64,000 bases of DNA from Bacillus sp. ISL-51 (GTDB taxonomy: Bacteria > Bacillota > Bacilli > Bacillales > Bacillaceae), in the NCBI RefSeq assembly GCF_018613535.1, contig NZ_JAGGQB010000005.1:682001-746000 (forward strand). The letters run 5' to 3'. This document shows, one piece after another, positions 2,822 through 34,893 of the stretch. The notes beneath the pieces are model-generated. The model was not told the DNA's origin and did no database searches. It saw nothing but the letters and a program-made list of their open reading frames with translations. The position numbers were made by a program, and so were the translations under genes. Numbering within the stretch: position 1 is the stretch's first letter; every line of letters starts with the position of its first letter.

Positions 2822-3007
2822 ATGGGGCAATATGTATTGACGGCATTCCATCCGTCCGGGGAAACGCTGCTCAATGAACGGATTGAAGCTGAAAATGAGC
2901 AAAAGGCGAAGGCCGCCGGAGAAGCATTATTAAAGGAAAAAAAGCTGGAGAATAATACGCATCGACTAGTAAACGAGGCCGGAAAGCTGATTTTATTCCA
3001 CAGATGA
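2822..3007 (+). CDS. yhzD: YhzD family small protein
   Basis: A 61-residue protein, strongly expressed by design: AAAGGAGGTGACGAG precedes the ATG. It is a small alpha/beta protein with a central helix rich in Glu, Lys and Ala and no membrane segment or signal peptide. It matches the YhzD family of Bacillus, which has no known function. Transcribed divergently from yhaQ and closed by its own terminator, which lies against the convergent yhaR 3' end. Confidence 0.75.
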   Translation: MGQYVLTAFHPSGETLLNERIEAENEQKAKAAGEALLKEKKLENNTHRLVNEAGKLILFHR

Positions 3008-3034
3008 CAGAAGCTTTCCGGCTTCTGTTTTTTA
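3008..3034 (+). terminator. Terminator of yhzD
   Basis: CAGAAG and CTTCTG arms around CTTTCCGG followed by TTTTTT. The stem can extend by pairing with AGCT-containing sequence at the end of yhzD. Confidence 0.75.
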
Positions 3035-3799
3035 TCGGTTAAATTGCGGAGTTCGTTTTTCTAAAAACGCGCGGATGCCTTCTTTATGGTCATCCGTTTT
3101 TCTCATATTTTCCTGGGCCTTTCGTTCAAGAGAAAGGACGTCTTTTAATCGGTTCATATGAAGACTGTTATAAATGGCTTTTGTTTCAATCATCGCTGAT
3201 AAAGGCGCGTTTAACAAACGGTCGATATAAGGCTTCGCCCCCGTTTTGGGATCACCGCTGAAAAGCCCGTCCGCCAGCTTCTTGCGCACCGCCTCCTCGG
3301 CCGGCAGTTTTTCACCGCTCCAAATCAGCTTTTTCGCTTCCATTTCTCCGACGCGTCTCATTAATAAATAATGGCCGCCCCCATCAGGAACAAGTCCGAT
3401 CCCGATAAAATTCATCGCTAAGCGGGCATTTTGTTCAGCGAGCACGATATCAGCGCACAGCGCAAAGCTCAGCCCAAGCCCCGCTGCGGCGCCGTGGATG
3501 GCGGCTATCACTATTTTTTTCATATCATAGAGCGTCAGCGTAATCGATTCGATCATTTTCATCAGCCGTTCATATTGCCCGGCATCATGAGCTGACGTCA
3601 TCATTTGAATATCGCCGCCGGCGGAAAAGCCTCTGCCTTCCCCTCTCAGTAAAACGATAAGCGCGTCACTGTCAGCGGCCATGACACACGCGTTTTCCAA
3701 TTCCCGCAGCATTTGTTCATTCAGCGCGTTGTAGCTGTCAGGCCGGTTCAGTATAATTTCTGCAATCTTTCCCTTTTCTTCATATTGAATATACTCCAT
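3032..3799 (-). CDS. yhaR: YhaR, enoyl-CoA hydratase/isomerase (crotonase) family
   Basis: Acyl-CoA enzyme of 255 residues. The ATG at 3799 follows GGGGGAG; a longer in-frame ATG at 3865 has no ribosome binding site. The oxyanion-hole strand SAGGD and the second oxyanion region AAAGLGLS are present. By eye, the two Glu residues of true enoyl-CoA hydratases are replaced (Ser and Phe at the aligned places), and a P-D-G-G-G segment carries an Asp as in PaaG/PaaB-type isomerases. A role as an isomerase or other crotonase is therefore likelier than classical hydration. Monocistronic. Confidence 0.82.
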   Translation of the reverse strand: MEYIQYEEKGKIAEIILNRPDSYNALNEQMLRELENACVMAADSDALIVLLRGEGRGFSAGGDIQMMTSAHDAGQYERLMKMIESITLTLYDMKKIVIAAIHGAAAGLGLSFALCADIVLAEQNARLAMNFIGIGLVPDGGGHYLLMRRVGEMEAKKLIWSGEKLPAEEAVRKKLADGLFSGDPKTGAKPYIDRLLNAPLSAMIETKAIYNSLHMNRLKDVLSLERKAQENMRKTDDHKEGIRAFLEKRTPQFNR

Positions 3800-28772: not shown

Positions 28773-28806
28773 AAAAACCTTGAGCTTTATTTTTCGCTCA
28801 AGGTTG
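28770..28806 (-). terminator. Terminator of yhdT
   Basis: AACCTTGAGC and GCTCAAGGTT arms; minus strand continues with TTTTTTT. Confidence 0.85.
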
Positions 28807-30175
28807 CGTTTTGAAGCATTACGGTCTCAGGCACAGGCAGCGGGTGATTTTTTGTCTCCAGCCCGCCCAAGCGGCCTGTCTTTTCTTTCAATTCAATTTG
28901 TTTGATAAACCGGCCGTCCATCTCCAAAACCCGGGCAGTGTACCGGCCGATGTGTATCGACTCCCCCGCCGTGATATCGATGTTTTCTTTCAGCACGAGC
29001 CCGCCGATTGTATCGACTTCTTCCTGAATGGCGGCGCCGAGCAAGTGGTTCACCTGCTCAATCCGAACCTTTCCGTCTAATACGTAATGGTGTTCGGACA
29101 GCTTTTGAATCAGCGGCTGTTCATCTTCATCAAATTCATCTCTGATGTCACCGACGATTTCTTCAAGAATGTCTTCGGTTGTCACAAGGCCTGACGTTCC
29201 CCCGTATTCGTCAGACAGAATCGCCAAATGAATCCGTTCTCTCTGCATTTTGATCAGCAGGTCGTCAATGGGAATCGTCTCAATCACTTCAATGACCGGC
29301 CTCACATACGGCGTTATCGGTAAACCCGCTTTTTCTTCCTCTGTCATAAACAGCAGATCTGAAAACAGATGCTTCGTGTTCACCATGCCGATGACGTTGT
29401 CTTTGTCCCCATCGGTTACAGGCCAGCGCGTATATTTGTCCTTCAGCATCATATCCAGCATTTCCGGTATAGACATATCAGTTGAAACAGCGGCCATTTC
29501 CTTTCTCGGGATCATGATCTCCTTTGCGATCCGGTTATCAAACTCAAAAATTTTATTCACAAATGTATATTCAGACGGATTAATCTCTCCGTTTTTCAAA
29601 CTTTCTGACAGCAGTATTCTCAGCTCTTCCTCTGAATGGGAGCCTTCATGCTCAGATACCGGCTTTAACCCGAACAGTCCGGTCAAAAGCCTGGCGGAGC
29701 CGTTCAGCACCCAAATAAACGGAAACATCAACAAGTAAAACAAGCGAAGCGGCCCGGCAATCCATAAAGTCAGTTTTTCCGCTTTTTGAATGGCAACCGT
29801 TTTAGGCGCAAGCTCGCCTATAACGACGTGTAAAAACGTAATCAGTGCATACGCCGCAGCAAAAGAAATGACATGCTCAGCCGAATCCGGCAGCCCCATG
29901 CCCCCAAACAAGGGATGAAGCATCCGTTCAAAAGCAGGTTCTCCCAGCACGCCGAGTCCGATGGATGTCAGCGTAATGCCAAGCTGTGACGCCGATAAGT
30001 ATTCGTCAAGGTCCGTAATGATACGCTTTGCGAGTACCGCCCGTCTGTTCCCTTCTGAAATGAGCTGGTCGATTCTGGATCTCCTTACTCTGACGATCGC
30101 AAACTCACTCGCGACGAAAAATGCCGTTAAAGCAATGAGTACAGCAATTAAAATCAAACTGTCAATGTCGTCCAT
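28787..30175 (-). CDS. yhdT: YhdT, CorC/HlyC-type (CNNM) transporter
   Basis: Membrane protein of 462 residues. N-terminal DUF21/CNNM domain (about 1-195) with three or four helices, beginning with [10 protein letters not shown]; then two CBS repeats (about 205-340) with I-P-R and T-R-W-P-V motifs; then a CorC_HlyC domain (about 350-435). Family members export Mg2+ or Na+/Mg2+. It is a close paralogue of mpfA in this window. The ATG at 30175 sits in a structured leader (30180-30216) preceded by a five-codon ORF, suggesting translational control. Confidence 0.88.
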   Translation of the reverse strand: MDDIDSLILIAVLIALTAFFVASEFAIVRVRRSRIDQLISEGNRRAVLAKRIITDLDEYLSASQLGITLTSIGLGVLGEPAFERMLHPLFGGMGLPDSAEHVISFAAAYALITFLHVVIGELAPKTVAIQKAEKLTLWIAGPLRLFYLLMFPFIWVLNGSARLLTGLFGLKPVSEHEGSHSEEELRILLSESLKNGEINPSEYTFVNKIFEFDNRIAKEIMIPRKEMAAVSTDMSIPEMLDMMLKDKYTRWPVTDGDKDNVIGMVNTKHLFSDLLFMTEEEKAGLPITPYVRPVIEVIETIPIDDLLIKMQRERIHLAILSDEYGGTSGLVTTEDILEEIVGDIRDEFDEDEQPLIQKLSEHHYVLDGKVRIEQVNHLLGAAIQEEVDTIGGLVLKENIDITAGESIHIGRYTARVLEMDGRFIKQIELKEKTGRLGGLETKNHPLPVPETVMLQNATLSEK

Positions 30176-30179
30176 TTCA

Positions 30180-30216
30180 CCTTATCCCTGTTAGAAAGGA
30201 TAAGGACGTCACCTCC
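30180..30216 (-). promoter_or_regulatory. Structured ribosome binding region of yhdT
   Basis: Minus strand: GGAGG (30212-30216), six bases, then an 8-bp perfect stem CCTTATCC/GGATAAGG with a 10-base loop, then four bases and ATG. Folded, the strong GGAGG lies about 10 bases from the ATG; unfolded it is 36 away. The stem's 3' arm also contains a second possible site, AAGG. Confidence 0.6.
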
Positions 30217-32873: not shown

Positions 32874-33071
32874 CTGTCCCTTCTGCGCGTTTGCTCGTCT
32901 TCCTTCGCCAAACCGCTCTCTATTTACAATGATTATGGAAGATTTGCATGATTCAGTCAACGCTTTTTCCTAAAGCCTTCACTGCCAATTAGAACGACAG
33001 CACTGGAAAACAATAAACTTGTGCAACTCCTCTTCATATATTAAACTATTCTCATAACTATAACGTGATGG

Positions 33072-33497
33072 TTGGGGAGGGATTTAGATGGGGCTGAGAC
33101 TTATCGCATCAGTGAATTAGCGGCTCTTGCCGGAGTAACGAAGCGGACGGTGGATTACTACACAAATCTTGGTCTGTTAACGCCGGCCAGGTCTTGTTCG
33201 AACTATCGTTACTACGATACACTTGCACTTAAACGACTAATGTTTATTGTCGCTTGTAAAAAGCAGCGATTGGCCCTGTCTGATATAAAAGATCAACTGG
33301 AGAACCAGTTTCCCTCTTCAGCTTTGACTGATGATATTGGAAATTTGGCAACGGAAATTGATGACATGAATCAAAACATCTCCGGGATCTTGCATCGGTT
33401 TGAAAAGCTTGAACCTGAGGAGCGTGCCCAGCTGAAAAAAAGGCTTACTCCCGAAAAGCTTGCAGTGCTTCAATCATTTATGCTGCTGTTAAGTTAA
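33072..33497 (+). CDS. yhdQ: YhdQ, MerR family regulator (CueR-type), start uncertain
   Basis: MerR protein of about 130-141 residues. Winged helix at the N-terminus (Y-R-I-S-E-L-A-A-L-A-G-V-T-K-R-T-V-D-Y-Y), then a coiled-coil dimer helix. B. subtilis YhdQ has been named CueR, but the C-terminal Cys pair that binds copper in CueR is absent here; only Cys in S-C-S-N and A-C-K-K remain. The annotated TTG 33072 has only a weak GTGAT site. A perfect GGGGAGGG serves an ATG at 33088 that is out of frame and stops after ten codons. One extra G in the GGGG run would join that ATG to the gene. Confidence 0.7.
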   Translation: MGRDLDGAETYRISELAALAGVTKRTVDYYTNLGLLTPARSCSNYRYYDTLALKRLMFIVACKKQRLALSDIKDQLENQFPSSALTDDIGNLATEIDDMNQNISGILHRFEKLEPEERAQLKKRLTPEKLAVLQSFMLLLS

Positions 33498-33515
33498 ACC
33501 ATTATCTTATTAACA

Positions 33516-33558
33516 GGAGGTGTTACCTTCATTTTCCCAAAAGGAGTGAAGGTTCTAA
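33516..33558 (+). promoter_or_regulatory. Structured ribosome binding region of mpfA
   Basis: GGAGG (33516-33520), four bases, then a 7-bp stem ACCTTCA/TGAAGGT (33525-33531, 33547-33553) with a 15-base loop, then five bases and the TTG start. Folding leaves 9 bases between GGAGG and the TTG. Same layout as in front of yhdT. Confidence 0.6.
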
Positions 33559-34893
33559 TTGGACATTGTGAATTTGATTTTAGTCGCGGTTTTAATCGCG
33601 CTGACGGCATTTTTCGTAGCATCTGAGTTTGCGATAATCAGAATCAGAGGCTCACGGGTTGACCAGCTTATAGCAGAAGGAAATAAAGCCGCAATCGGTG
33701 TAAAAAAAGTGACCACGCATTTGGATGAGTACTTATCGGCGTGCCAGCTCGGCATTACATTGACTTCGATTGGTCTGGGTGTCTTAGGCGAATCAACGAT
33801 TGAACGCATGCTTCATCCGCTTTTCACAAAATTAAACGTACCAAACTCACTATCGCATGTTATTTCATTCATTCTGGCCTACGCCATCATTACATTTTTA
33901 CATGTGGTCGTAGGGGAATTGGCGCCGAAAACAGTCGCCATCCAAAAAGCGGAAGCCGTTTCGATGCTGTTTTCGAAACCGCTCATTTGGTTTTACCGCA
34001 TCATGTTCCCGTTTATTTGGCTTTTGAACAACTCCGCCCGTCTTCTGACAAAGATGTTCGGTTTGGAGACGGTTTCTGAAAATGAGCTTGCCCATTCGGA
34101 AGAAGAGCTGCGCATCATTTTATCAGAAAGCTATAAAAGCGGGGAAATCAACCAGTCTGAATTTAAATATGTGAATAAAATCTTTGAATTTGACGACAGA
34201 CTCGCTAAAGAAATTATGATTCCGAGAACGGAAATCGTCAGTCTGCCGCACGATATCAAAATCTCTGAAATGATGGATATCATTCAGATTGAAAAATATA
34301 CACGCTACCCTGTCGAAGAGGGCGACAAAGACAATATTATCGGCGTCATCAATATTAAGGAAGTGCTGACCGCCTGCATCAGCGGCGAAGTATCAGTTGA
34401 CTCGCCGATTACCGCCTTTGTAAATCCGATCATCCATGTGATTGAATCTGCGCCCATTCACGACCTGCTTGTAAAAATGCAGAAAGAACGGGTTCATATG
34501 GCGATTCTGTCAGACGAATACGGCGGAACCGCAGGGCTTGTGACCGTTGAAGATATTATCGAAGAAATCGTCGGGGAAATCCGGGACGAATTTGATATTG
34601 ATGAAATCAACGAGATCCGCAAACTCGGGGACGGCCATTATATGCTTGATGGAAAAGTCCTGATTGACCAAGTGAACGACTTGCTCGGCATTCATTTAGA
34701 AAATGACGAGGTCGACACAATCGGCGGCTGGTTCCTTACCCAGAAATACGACGTGCAGCAGCATGATTCCATTATTGAAGAAGGCTGTGAATTTATTATT
34801 AATGAAATTGACGGCCACCATGTCGCTTATATCGAAGTAAAGAAGCTGGCGTTTGACGAACTGTTAGAAACCGCCGAACAAAAAGAGGCGTAA
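33559..34893 (+). CDS. mpfA: MpfA (YhdP), CorC/CNNM-type Mg2+ efflux protein
   Basis: Protein of 444 residues from a TTG at 33559, closely matching B. subtilis YhdP/MpfA in sequence and length. CNNM membrane domain (1-195), two CBS repeats (about 205-335) and CorC_HlyC domain (about 350-430). In B. subtilis loss of MpfA causes Mg2+ sensitivity, so it is taken to be the main Mg2+ exporter. Downstream of yhdQ on the same strand. Its leader has a hairpin between Shine-Dalgarno and start codon. Confidence 0.92.

Follow-up and report, generated by a model that had tools for sequence, protein, structure and literature searches.

A conserved hairpin between a distant Shine-Dalgarno sequence and the start codon of CNNM/MpfA genes in class Bacilli

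Before many genes for CNNM/MpfA proteins in class Bacilli, a Shine-Dalgarno sequence (SD) of great strength lies far from the start codon, and the interval between them is occupied by an RNA hairpin. This geometry is kept from gene to gene and is strongly enriched at the CNNM family, the two strands of its stem covary, and their pairing takes place at the level of RNA. We consider it probable that the hairpin bridges a split ribosome binding site, that this arrangement has been conserved at CNNM/MpfA genes of the class, and that the folded form is the translated (ON) form. The window from which the analysis departs is a whole stretch of 64,000 nucleotides from Bacillus sp. ISL-51 (assembly GCF_018613535.1, contig NZ_JAGGQB010000005.1), and all coordinates below count from its first base.

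The four CNNM leaders of the genome

Read base by base, the mpfA leader (33516-33561, plus strand) begins with an SD core, GGAGG (SD1, 33516..33520), and continues with a left flank TGTT of 4 nt (33521..33524), the 5' strand of the stem ACCTTCA (33525..33531, also recovered by folding), a 15-nt loop TTTTCCCAAAAGGAG (33532..33546) in which RNAfold places further inner pairs, the 3' strand TGAAGGT (33547..33553) and a right flank TCTAA of 5 nt (33554..33558), after which the TTG start codon follows at 33559-33561. Together with its flanks, SD1 reads AGGAGGTG (33515-33522), a long complement to the 16S tail with an energy of -17.0 kcal/mol. The 3' strand is itself SD-like, and comparison of leaders makes it a possible second SD (SD2). 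The initial annotation had described a GGAGG, 4 bases, a 7-bp stem with a 15-base loop, 5 bases and TTG, which is exactly what the bases show, and its folded spacing of 9 is equally correct, being the 4 + 5 nt that lie outside the stem; the raw SD-start spacing is 38 nt, and the 9 nt are those left by the predicted fold. The gene itself, which we take to be mpfA (yhdP-like), is a 444-codon frame on the plus strand (33559..34893) whose product carries CNNM, CBS and CorC_HlyC domains. Upstream of it, a MerR-family regulator gene recognized from its ORF and domains (33072..33497, plus strand) ends 18 nt ahead of SD1.

Two further features of this locus should be mentioned. The mpfA loop contains an extra SD-like run, AAAGGAG (33540-33546), 12 nt before the TTG, which is common to the B. 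nakamurai, B. velezensis and B. siamensis leaders (L001-L003) and is absent from the other Bacillus leaders in our alignment of the Bacillus mpfA set. In addition, yhdP is named in a table of B. subtilis GlnR binding sites within the available text of PMC5569456.

The second CNNM/CorC gene of the window, yhdT (28787..30175, minus strand, from its ORF and domains), starts with ATG at 30175. Its leader (30176..30216, minus strand) has GGAGG at 30216-30212 and a stem formed by CCTTATCC (30205-30198) with GGATAAGG (30187-30180), followed by TGAA; the gene preceding this leader is ketoacyl-synthase-like. RNAfold gives -11.6 kcal/mol for the mpfA spacer (z -2.80, with 2 of 200 dinucleotide shuffles folding as well) and -13.0 kcal/mol for that of yhdT (z -3.39, with none of 200 as good). 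The z scores are weak once SD and flanks are added (-0.25 for mpfA and -0.99 for yhdT), so that the folding signal sits in the spacer. Farther upstream of the yhdT leader, the minus strand at 30294-30265 reads GGAGGTGGCAGG and then ATG GGG CCC TCT ATA TAG, which is a possible five-codon upstream ORF.

A search with PF01595 found four CNNM genes in the whole genome. The two paralogues outside the window, on contigs C7 and C21, have GGAGGTG, a hairpin (CCCCTTACCG..CGGTAGGGG and GCCTTCC..GGAAGGC, respectively) and a TTG start. All four leaders pass the strict rule defined below, each with a different stem, and all four retain the hairpin when folded with GGAGG forced open. The proposal that mpfA and yhdT share geometry and not sequence thus holds, their stems differing on an identical plan, and it extends to the other two paralogues and across the Bacilli.

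Specificity, geometry and distribution

The strict rule asks for an exact SD of at least 7 nt, one unbranched hairpin of at least 6 bp at -6 kcal/mol or below, 4-13 nt left outside the hairpin, and no nearer in-frame start. Applied to a sample of this genome (396 gene calls from the window plus 20 segments of 20 kb), it accepted three: mpfA, yhdT and one weak other. The arrangement had been claimed to be special to CorC/CNNM genes, a claim to be given up if the stem were absent from related mpfA leaders or equally frequent before unrelated genes. The stem is conserved in the related mpfA leaders, and the arrangement is rare elsewhere: among the loci of relatives (L001-L080), 102 of 126 CNNM gene calls pass the strict rule versus 3 of 684 others, and the non-CNNM rate in this genome is 1 in 394. 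The proposal built on it, shared translational control of Mg2+ efflux, is supported in part: the arrangement is common to these genes, and a regulation by Mg2+ is conceivable.

Looser searches call more freely. A relaxed rule accepted 37 of the 396 gene calls of this genome, and a scan allowing G-U pairs in the SD accepted 30 of 752 (864 kb), including 28 of the 750 other genes. Only three of these 30 have an SD energy of -17 kcal/mol or below, namely mpfA, yhdT and an internal start with a 79-nt spacer. In L001-L080, the G-U-tolerant scan, with one match counted per other gene, gave 19 other matches among 810, two of them with an SD energy of -17 kcal/mol or below. Loose classifiers, the relaxed rule among them, were discarded as over-calling; one, for example, accepted 79 of 110 Bacilli leaders and 11 of 27 from other Bacillota, many through internal starts or weak SDs. 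Among the named relatives, a classifier looser than the strict rule accepted 115 of 132 CNNM genes (a set in which mpfA and yhdT of this genome are counted twice, from the window and as L081/L082). Fourteen of the 17 genes that it rejected show the plan by eye; the other three, the second copies of L044, L073 and L076, have no such plan within 80 nt by eye. Second CNNM copies in Peribacillus may carry a bridging hairpin of more than 80 nt, seen by eye in L073 (about 1490-1584) and with less certainty in L076 (about 1460-1557).

A covariance model, R1, was built from 22 mpfA-type leaders together with their first two codons, whose inclusion biases it towards CNNM starts. It was used to search 40 whole genomes of the family, scoring 145 of the 1131-2781 first-look candidates in each genome. 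Among the scored candidates, 51 matches at E values up to 0.1 were obtained in 34 of the 40 genomes, all 51 at CNNM starts. For the 30 that fall in a locus, the placement was made by script in 29 cases and by coordinates in one near a contig end (L269), and the remaining 21 adjoin CNNM matches by coordinates. Among the 145 first-look candidates scored in the present genome, R1 had no match; the leader sequence has therefore drifted far from that of the relatives on which the model was built.

The geometry itself was measured on 54 non-redundant leaders, which were selected by bridging classifiers and thinned at 80% identity. Their raw SD-start spacing is 38.5 +/- 11.2 nt (range 19-77), and the folded spacing is 8.9 +/- 3.1 nt, 3-15 nt having been required by the selection; in ordinary genes of this genome, the SD-start spacing peaks at 7-8 nt. 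The left flank measures 4-5 nt in 32 of the 54, and the stem would thus start roughly where the SD helix of GGAGGTGA ends. The mean SD1 energy is -18.9 kcal/mol in these leaders, which were chosen with an SD threshold, versus -12.2 kcal/mol in 383 ordinary genes (gene calls with uncurated starts and some SD 4-13 nt from a start within the first 60 codons), and TTG is the start codon in 44 of the 54 versus 59 of the 383. Stem energies range from -6.0 to -42.4 kcal/mol, with 41 of the 54 between -17 and -8. The layout is kept even with wholly different stems and spacers of 54-73 nt, as in the second copies of L062 and L063 and in L064 and L068. A short upstream ORF initiated from SD1 was considered and rejected, because a start codon lies about 4-12 nt past SD1 in just 8 of the 54 leaders. 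In tandem second CNNM genes of Neobacillus (L043, about 2948-3045; L047, about 3356-3453; L056, about 3337-3434), GAGGTGG takes the place of GGAGGTG and a CTTAC..GTAAG hairpin still comes next, ahead of an ATG start.

The same leaders bear on a different reading, in which SD2 on the 3' strand is the real SD and is hidden in the stem, SD1 is a standby site that holds the 30S subunit until the hairpin opens, and folding represses translation (OFF). Of the 54 leaders, 46 have an SD2 of -6 kcal/mol or below at 4-13 nt from the start codon, versus 14 of 54 when the strands are swapped; bridging has no need of such an element at a normal distance, and we count it against a pure bridging model. The 5' strands are also pyrimidine-rich, with at least five pyrimidines among the first six bases in 33 of 54 stems and one or none in just two. 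Yet the geometry is kept where SD2 is absent by rule (L033, the second copies of L062 and L071, L126 and L157, although L126 has a GGAG that misses the permitted range by a single base on the near side) and where it is weaker than -6 kcal/mol (L031, L171 and L189). Nor does a standby site need a set distance between SD1 and the hairpin, yet the left flank has its peak, and the folded spacing stays near 9 nt while the raw spacing varies between 19 and 77 nt, the folded range of 3-15 nt being partly selected. We regard standby repression as unlikely, if the most serious competitor of a bridged site.

The survey of the class covered 110 CNNM leaders from a set of 61 genomes, apart from the four genes of this genome, two CNNM matches that are partial or broken, and 12 matches below the Pfam cut-off. 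A strict test is passed by 51 of the 110; these come from 35 of 54 genomes and represent 19 of 30 families, and 48 of the 51 start with TTG. Fifty-nine fail it, ten of which we judged bridged by eye (L106, L125, L132, L133, L147, L159, L163, L168, L174 and L187). Among the best-scoring matches of new loci in other Bacillota, 1 of 27 leaders passes, and this one (L215, with a 76-nt spacer) is regarded as chance.

On a midpoint-rooted protein tree of 61 rows, made of the best-scoring matches and the four proteins of this genome, the MpfA-type clade holds 33 rows from Bacilli, 28 of them bridged (four by eye), and seven from other Bacillota, none of them bridged. The bridged label requires nine changes on the tree, at least six of them by well-supported branches, a number which, like the 59 failures above, we count against the bridged reading. 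These observations suggest that bridging is an old feature of the MpfA genes of Bacilli, with repeated loss or gain. The seven unbridged rows (L222, L223, L225, L227, L228, L233 and L236; none bridged by the strict test of the survey) comprise five with an ordinary SD, one with none scored (L236) and one that the loose scan over-called at an internal TTG (L225); they may reflect either loss of the element or gene transfer. In three Staphylococcus genomes, the mpfA-type leaders are bridged (L124, L127 and L134), the genus being assigned through a genus-specific family for which all three exceed the cut-off and neither of two other genomes nor any of 14 controls does.

Pairing of the stem as RNA

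Orthologous leaders were aligned in three sets: A2, A3 (22 leaders) and A4 (the Bacillus mpfA set). A larger alignment, A1 (52 leaders), mixes stem registers and was used for sequence conservation alone, and another, A5, joins two registers and was left unused. GGAGGTG is invariant in A1. Cells in which both sides of a pair have changed number 16 in A3 and 8 in A2, counts reached by none of 500 shuffles in either case, and 2 in A4, reached by 34 of 500, so that within the Bacillus mpfA set alone the covariation is weak; the yhdT-type stem covaries among its relatives. Counted by pairs, double-sided change occurs in three pairs of A3, three of A2 and one of A4, equalled by 106, 47 and 220 of 500 shuffles, and the counts of pair types in these alignments are at chance level (260, 264 and 203 of 500 shuffles for A3, A2 and A4). 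When the partner strand is slid by 1-3 columns, pairing falls from 95-100% to at most 63%. The strict-rule enrichment at CNNM genes, together with the covariation against shuffles, leads us to reject a chance origin. At column 36 of A3, the 3' strand of mpfA-type hairpins (L041, L043, L046, L070 and others) carries a one-base bulge at a constant level, its base varying, a feature common to Priestia, Neobacillus and their relatives.

The mispairs tell at which level the stem acts. In a DNA palindrome, G-T and A-C mispairs are expected alike; among the cells of these stems, G-U (G-T) mispairs outnumber A-C by 57 to 4, with 11 other mismatches, and the hairpin therefore acts as RNA. This excess is why we reject an inverted repeat serving as a DNA operator, for example of the MerR-type regulator encoded just upstream, a reading to which we give next to no probability, although dyads are typical for the MerR family and the regulator gene lies close to SD1. 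The repeat sequence is also unconserved, the yhdT copy follows a gene that is not of MerR type, and no sigma-70-type promoter match was found in 32950-33700.

Could the pairing serve a switch between two RNA folds? A bistable element would let the 5' strand pair either with SD1, hiding it, or with the 3' strand, leaving SD1 free and bridged, and a signal would shift the balance. RNAalifold on A3 does prefer SD1 paired with the 5' strand (GGAG/CTCC plus an upper stem), a result that we count against bridging, and an AGGAG-GTGA-CTCCT pairing can be drawn by eye in many leaders. However, the 5' strand can pair with SD1 in 43 of the 54 leaders, where shuffles of that strand give an expectation of 40.5, so that SD1 sequestration amounts to nothing beyond composition. 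Moreover, RNAalifold on A4 picks the bridging stem, and folds of the full mpfA and yhdT leaders both keep it. We consider such a switch rather improbable.

A classical riboswitch or protein operator, in which a ligand or repressor binds the hairpin, seems very unlikely to us, even though the element is specific to one gene family and metal transporter genes can carry such leaders, mgtE being an example. Loop length and sequence vary freely, stems differ among paralogues, and no conserved nucleotide was found in the loops of A1-A4, which leaves no classical aptamer or ion-binding pocket. An Rfam scan of the 64-kb window gave no match at gathering score, the M-box included, and around the element itself the search returned no family other than a snoRNA chance match (E 0.99).

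The probable bridged site, its folded state and its possible meaning

If the hairpin bridges, the mechanism would be as follows. The very strong SD, GGAGGTG, would be too distant from the start codon in linear RNA; the hairpin, mostly starting 4-5 nt past the SD, would loop out the intervening RNA and leave about 9 nt, and the 30S subunit could thereby grip SD and start codon simultaneously. Folded would then be ON, translation would follow the share of arriving 30S subunits that meet a folded hairpin, and whatever stabilizes RNA, be it higher Mg2+, cold or the lack of an unwinding helicase, would raise it. Feedback could in this way operate without any particular sequence: at high Mg2+ the RNA would fold, and more exporter would be made.

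We take the folded form as ON because the plan equals that of two split sites of phage T4. According to the portion of PMC3014915 available, a hairpin shortens the SD-start distance from 22 to 5 nt in gene 38 and from 27 to 11 nt in gene 25, and destabilizing the structure lowers initiation. As in these split ("accommodated") sites, the SD is too far away and an intervening hairpin restores, here by prediction, a working distance. Unlike them, the present element, known from sequence alone, belongs to one cellular gene family and recurs in many families of Bacilli; its stem sequence turns over, and it combines a near-perfect long SD with mostly TTG starts.

Control of Mg2+ import by leader RNA is well known from the M-box (ykoK) riboswitch in the leader of B. 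subtilis mgtE. The CNNM hairpins likewise belong to leaders of genes for Mg2+ transporters; unlike the M-box, they are single and small, without a conserved core, located at the start codon, and concerned with export rather than import. Another relative in plan is the thrS operator of E. coli, which is bound by its own synthetase. The part of PMC3936740 available describes its ribosome binding site as split and its RNA as structured, and in being split it resembles the CNNM leaders. Unlike in thrS, protein recognition is improbable for these hairpins, since their stem and loop sequences are unshared. The accessible passages of PMC11332333, PMC5122736, PMC4448311, PMC5569456, PMC8844918, PMC3936740, PMC3014915 and PMC6711546 make no mention of a hairpin that separates the SD of a CNNM gene from its start codon; the yhdP of PMC4448311 is an E. 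coli table entry and a different gene. Within the main text of three papers on structured-RNA discovery (PMC8632094, PMC6429828 and PMC2864571), the words CNNM, CorC and magnesium are absent, and PMC6429828 describes a motif before corA.

Published work on S. aureus touches the same gene. As far as the accessible text of two reports goes (PMC5122736, PMC6711546), mpfA mRNA is up in all tested conditions in cells without the DEAD-box helicase CshB, the rise is more striking in RPMI and at 25 C, and the cshB mutant is partly relieved when mpfA is lost as well; the effect was measured on mRNA, and the authors call it possibly indirect and leave its cause open. Should CshB open the hairpin, then both its absence and low temperature would favour the folded form and thereby continued translation of the mRNA. 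These data fit the folded form being ON, and the Staphylococcus leaders that we read as bridged are those of L124, L127 and L134. Standby repression predicts that loss of CshB lowers mpfA, and the accessible parts of both reports (PMC5122736, PMC6711546) describe a rise instead.

Whether the bridged site also senses its surroundings is a further step. By their energies, most stems should stay folded over the physiological range of Mg2+, being too stable to melt by Mg2+ alone; Mg2+ would then have to act through kinetics, through opening by helicases, or through the way in which SD helix and hairpin pack together in the cleft of the 30S subunit. We hold it possible, though rather doubtful, that the element is an aptamer-free sensor: the ribosome would read whether a hairpin, whatever its sequence, is folded, and exporter synthesis across Bacilli would be set directly by Mg2+, temperature and DEAD-box helicases. 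If true, this would explain the overexpression of mpfA in the S. aureus helicase mutant, most striking at 25 C or in RPMI.

At CNNM genes of many Bacillus-like bacteria, then, a hairpin appears to place a distant SD beside the start codon, what matters being its shape rather than its letters, and RNA folding may control Mg2+ export through this arrangement. The bridging principle is known from T4; its conserved, sequence-free use in one cellular gene family appears to be new, and we know of no earlier case of a bridged ribosome binding site kept throughout a gene family in cellular genomes by shape alone. Elements defined only by shape escape sequence-based RNA searches, as the copies of this genome escaped R1 among the candidates scored. 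For the MpfA-type exporters, many genes of Bacilli now have a concrete cis element before them, and this bridged leader may explain the link between CshB, cold and mpfA that the available text of two reports describes (PMC5122736, PMC6711546).
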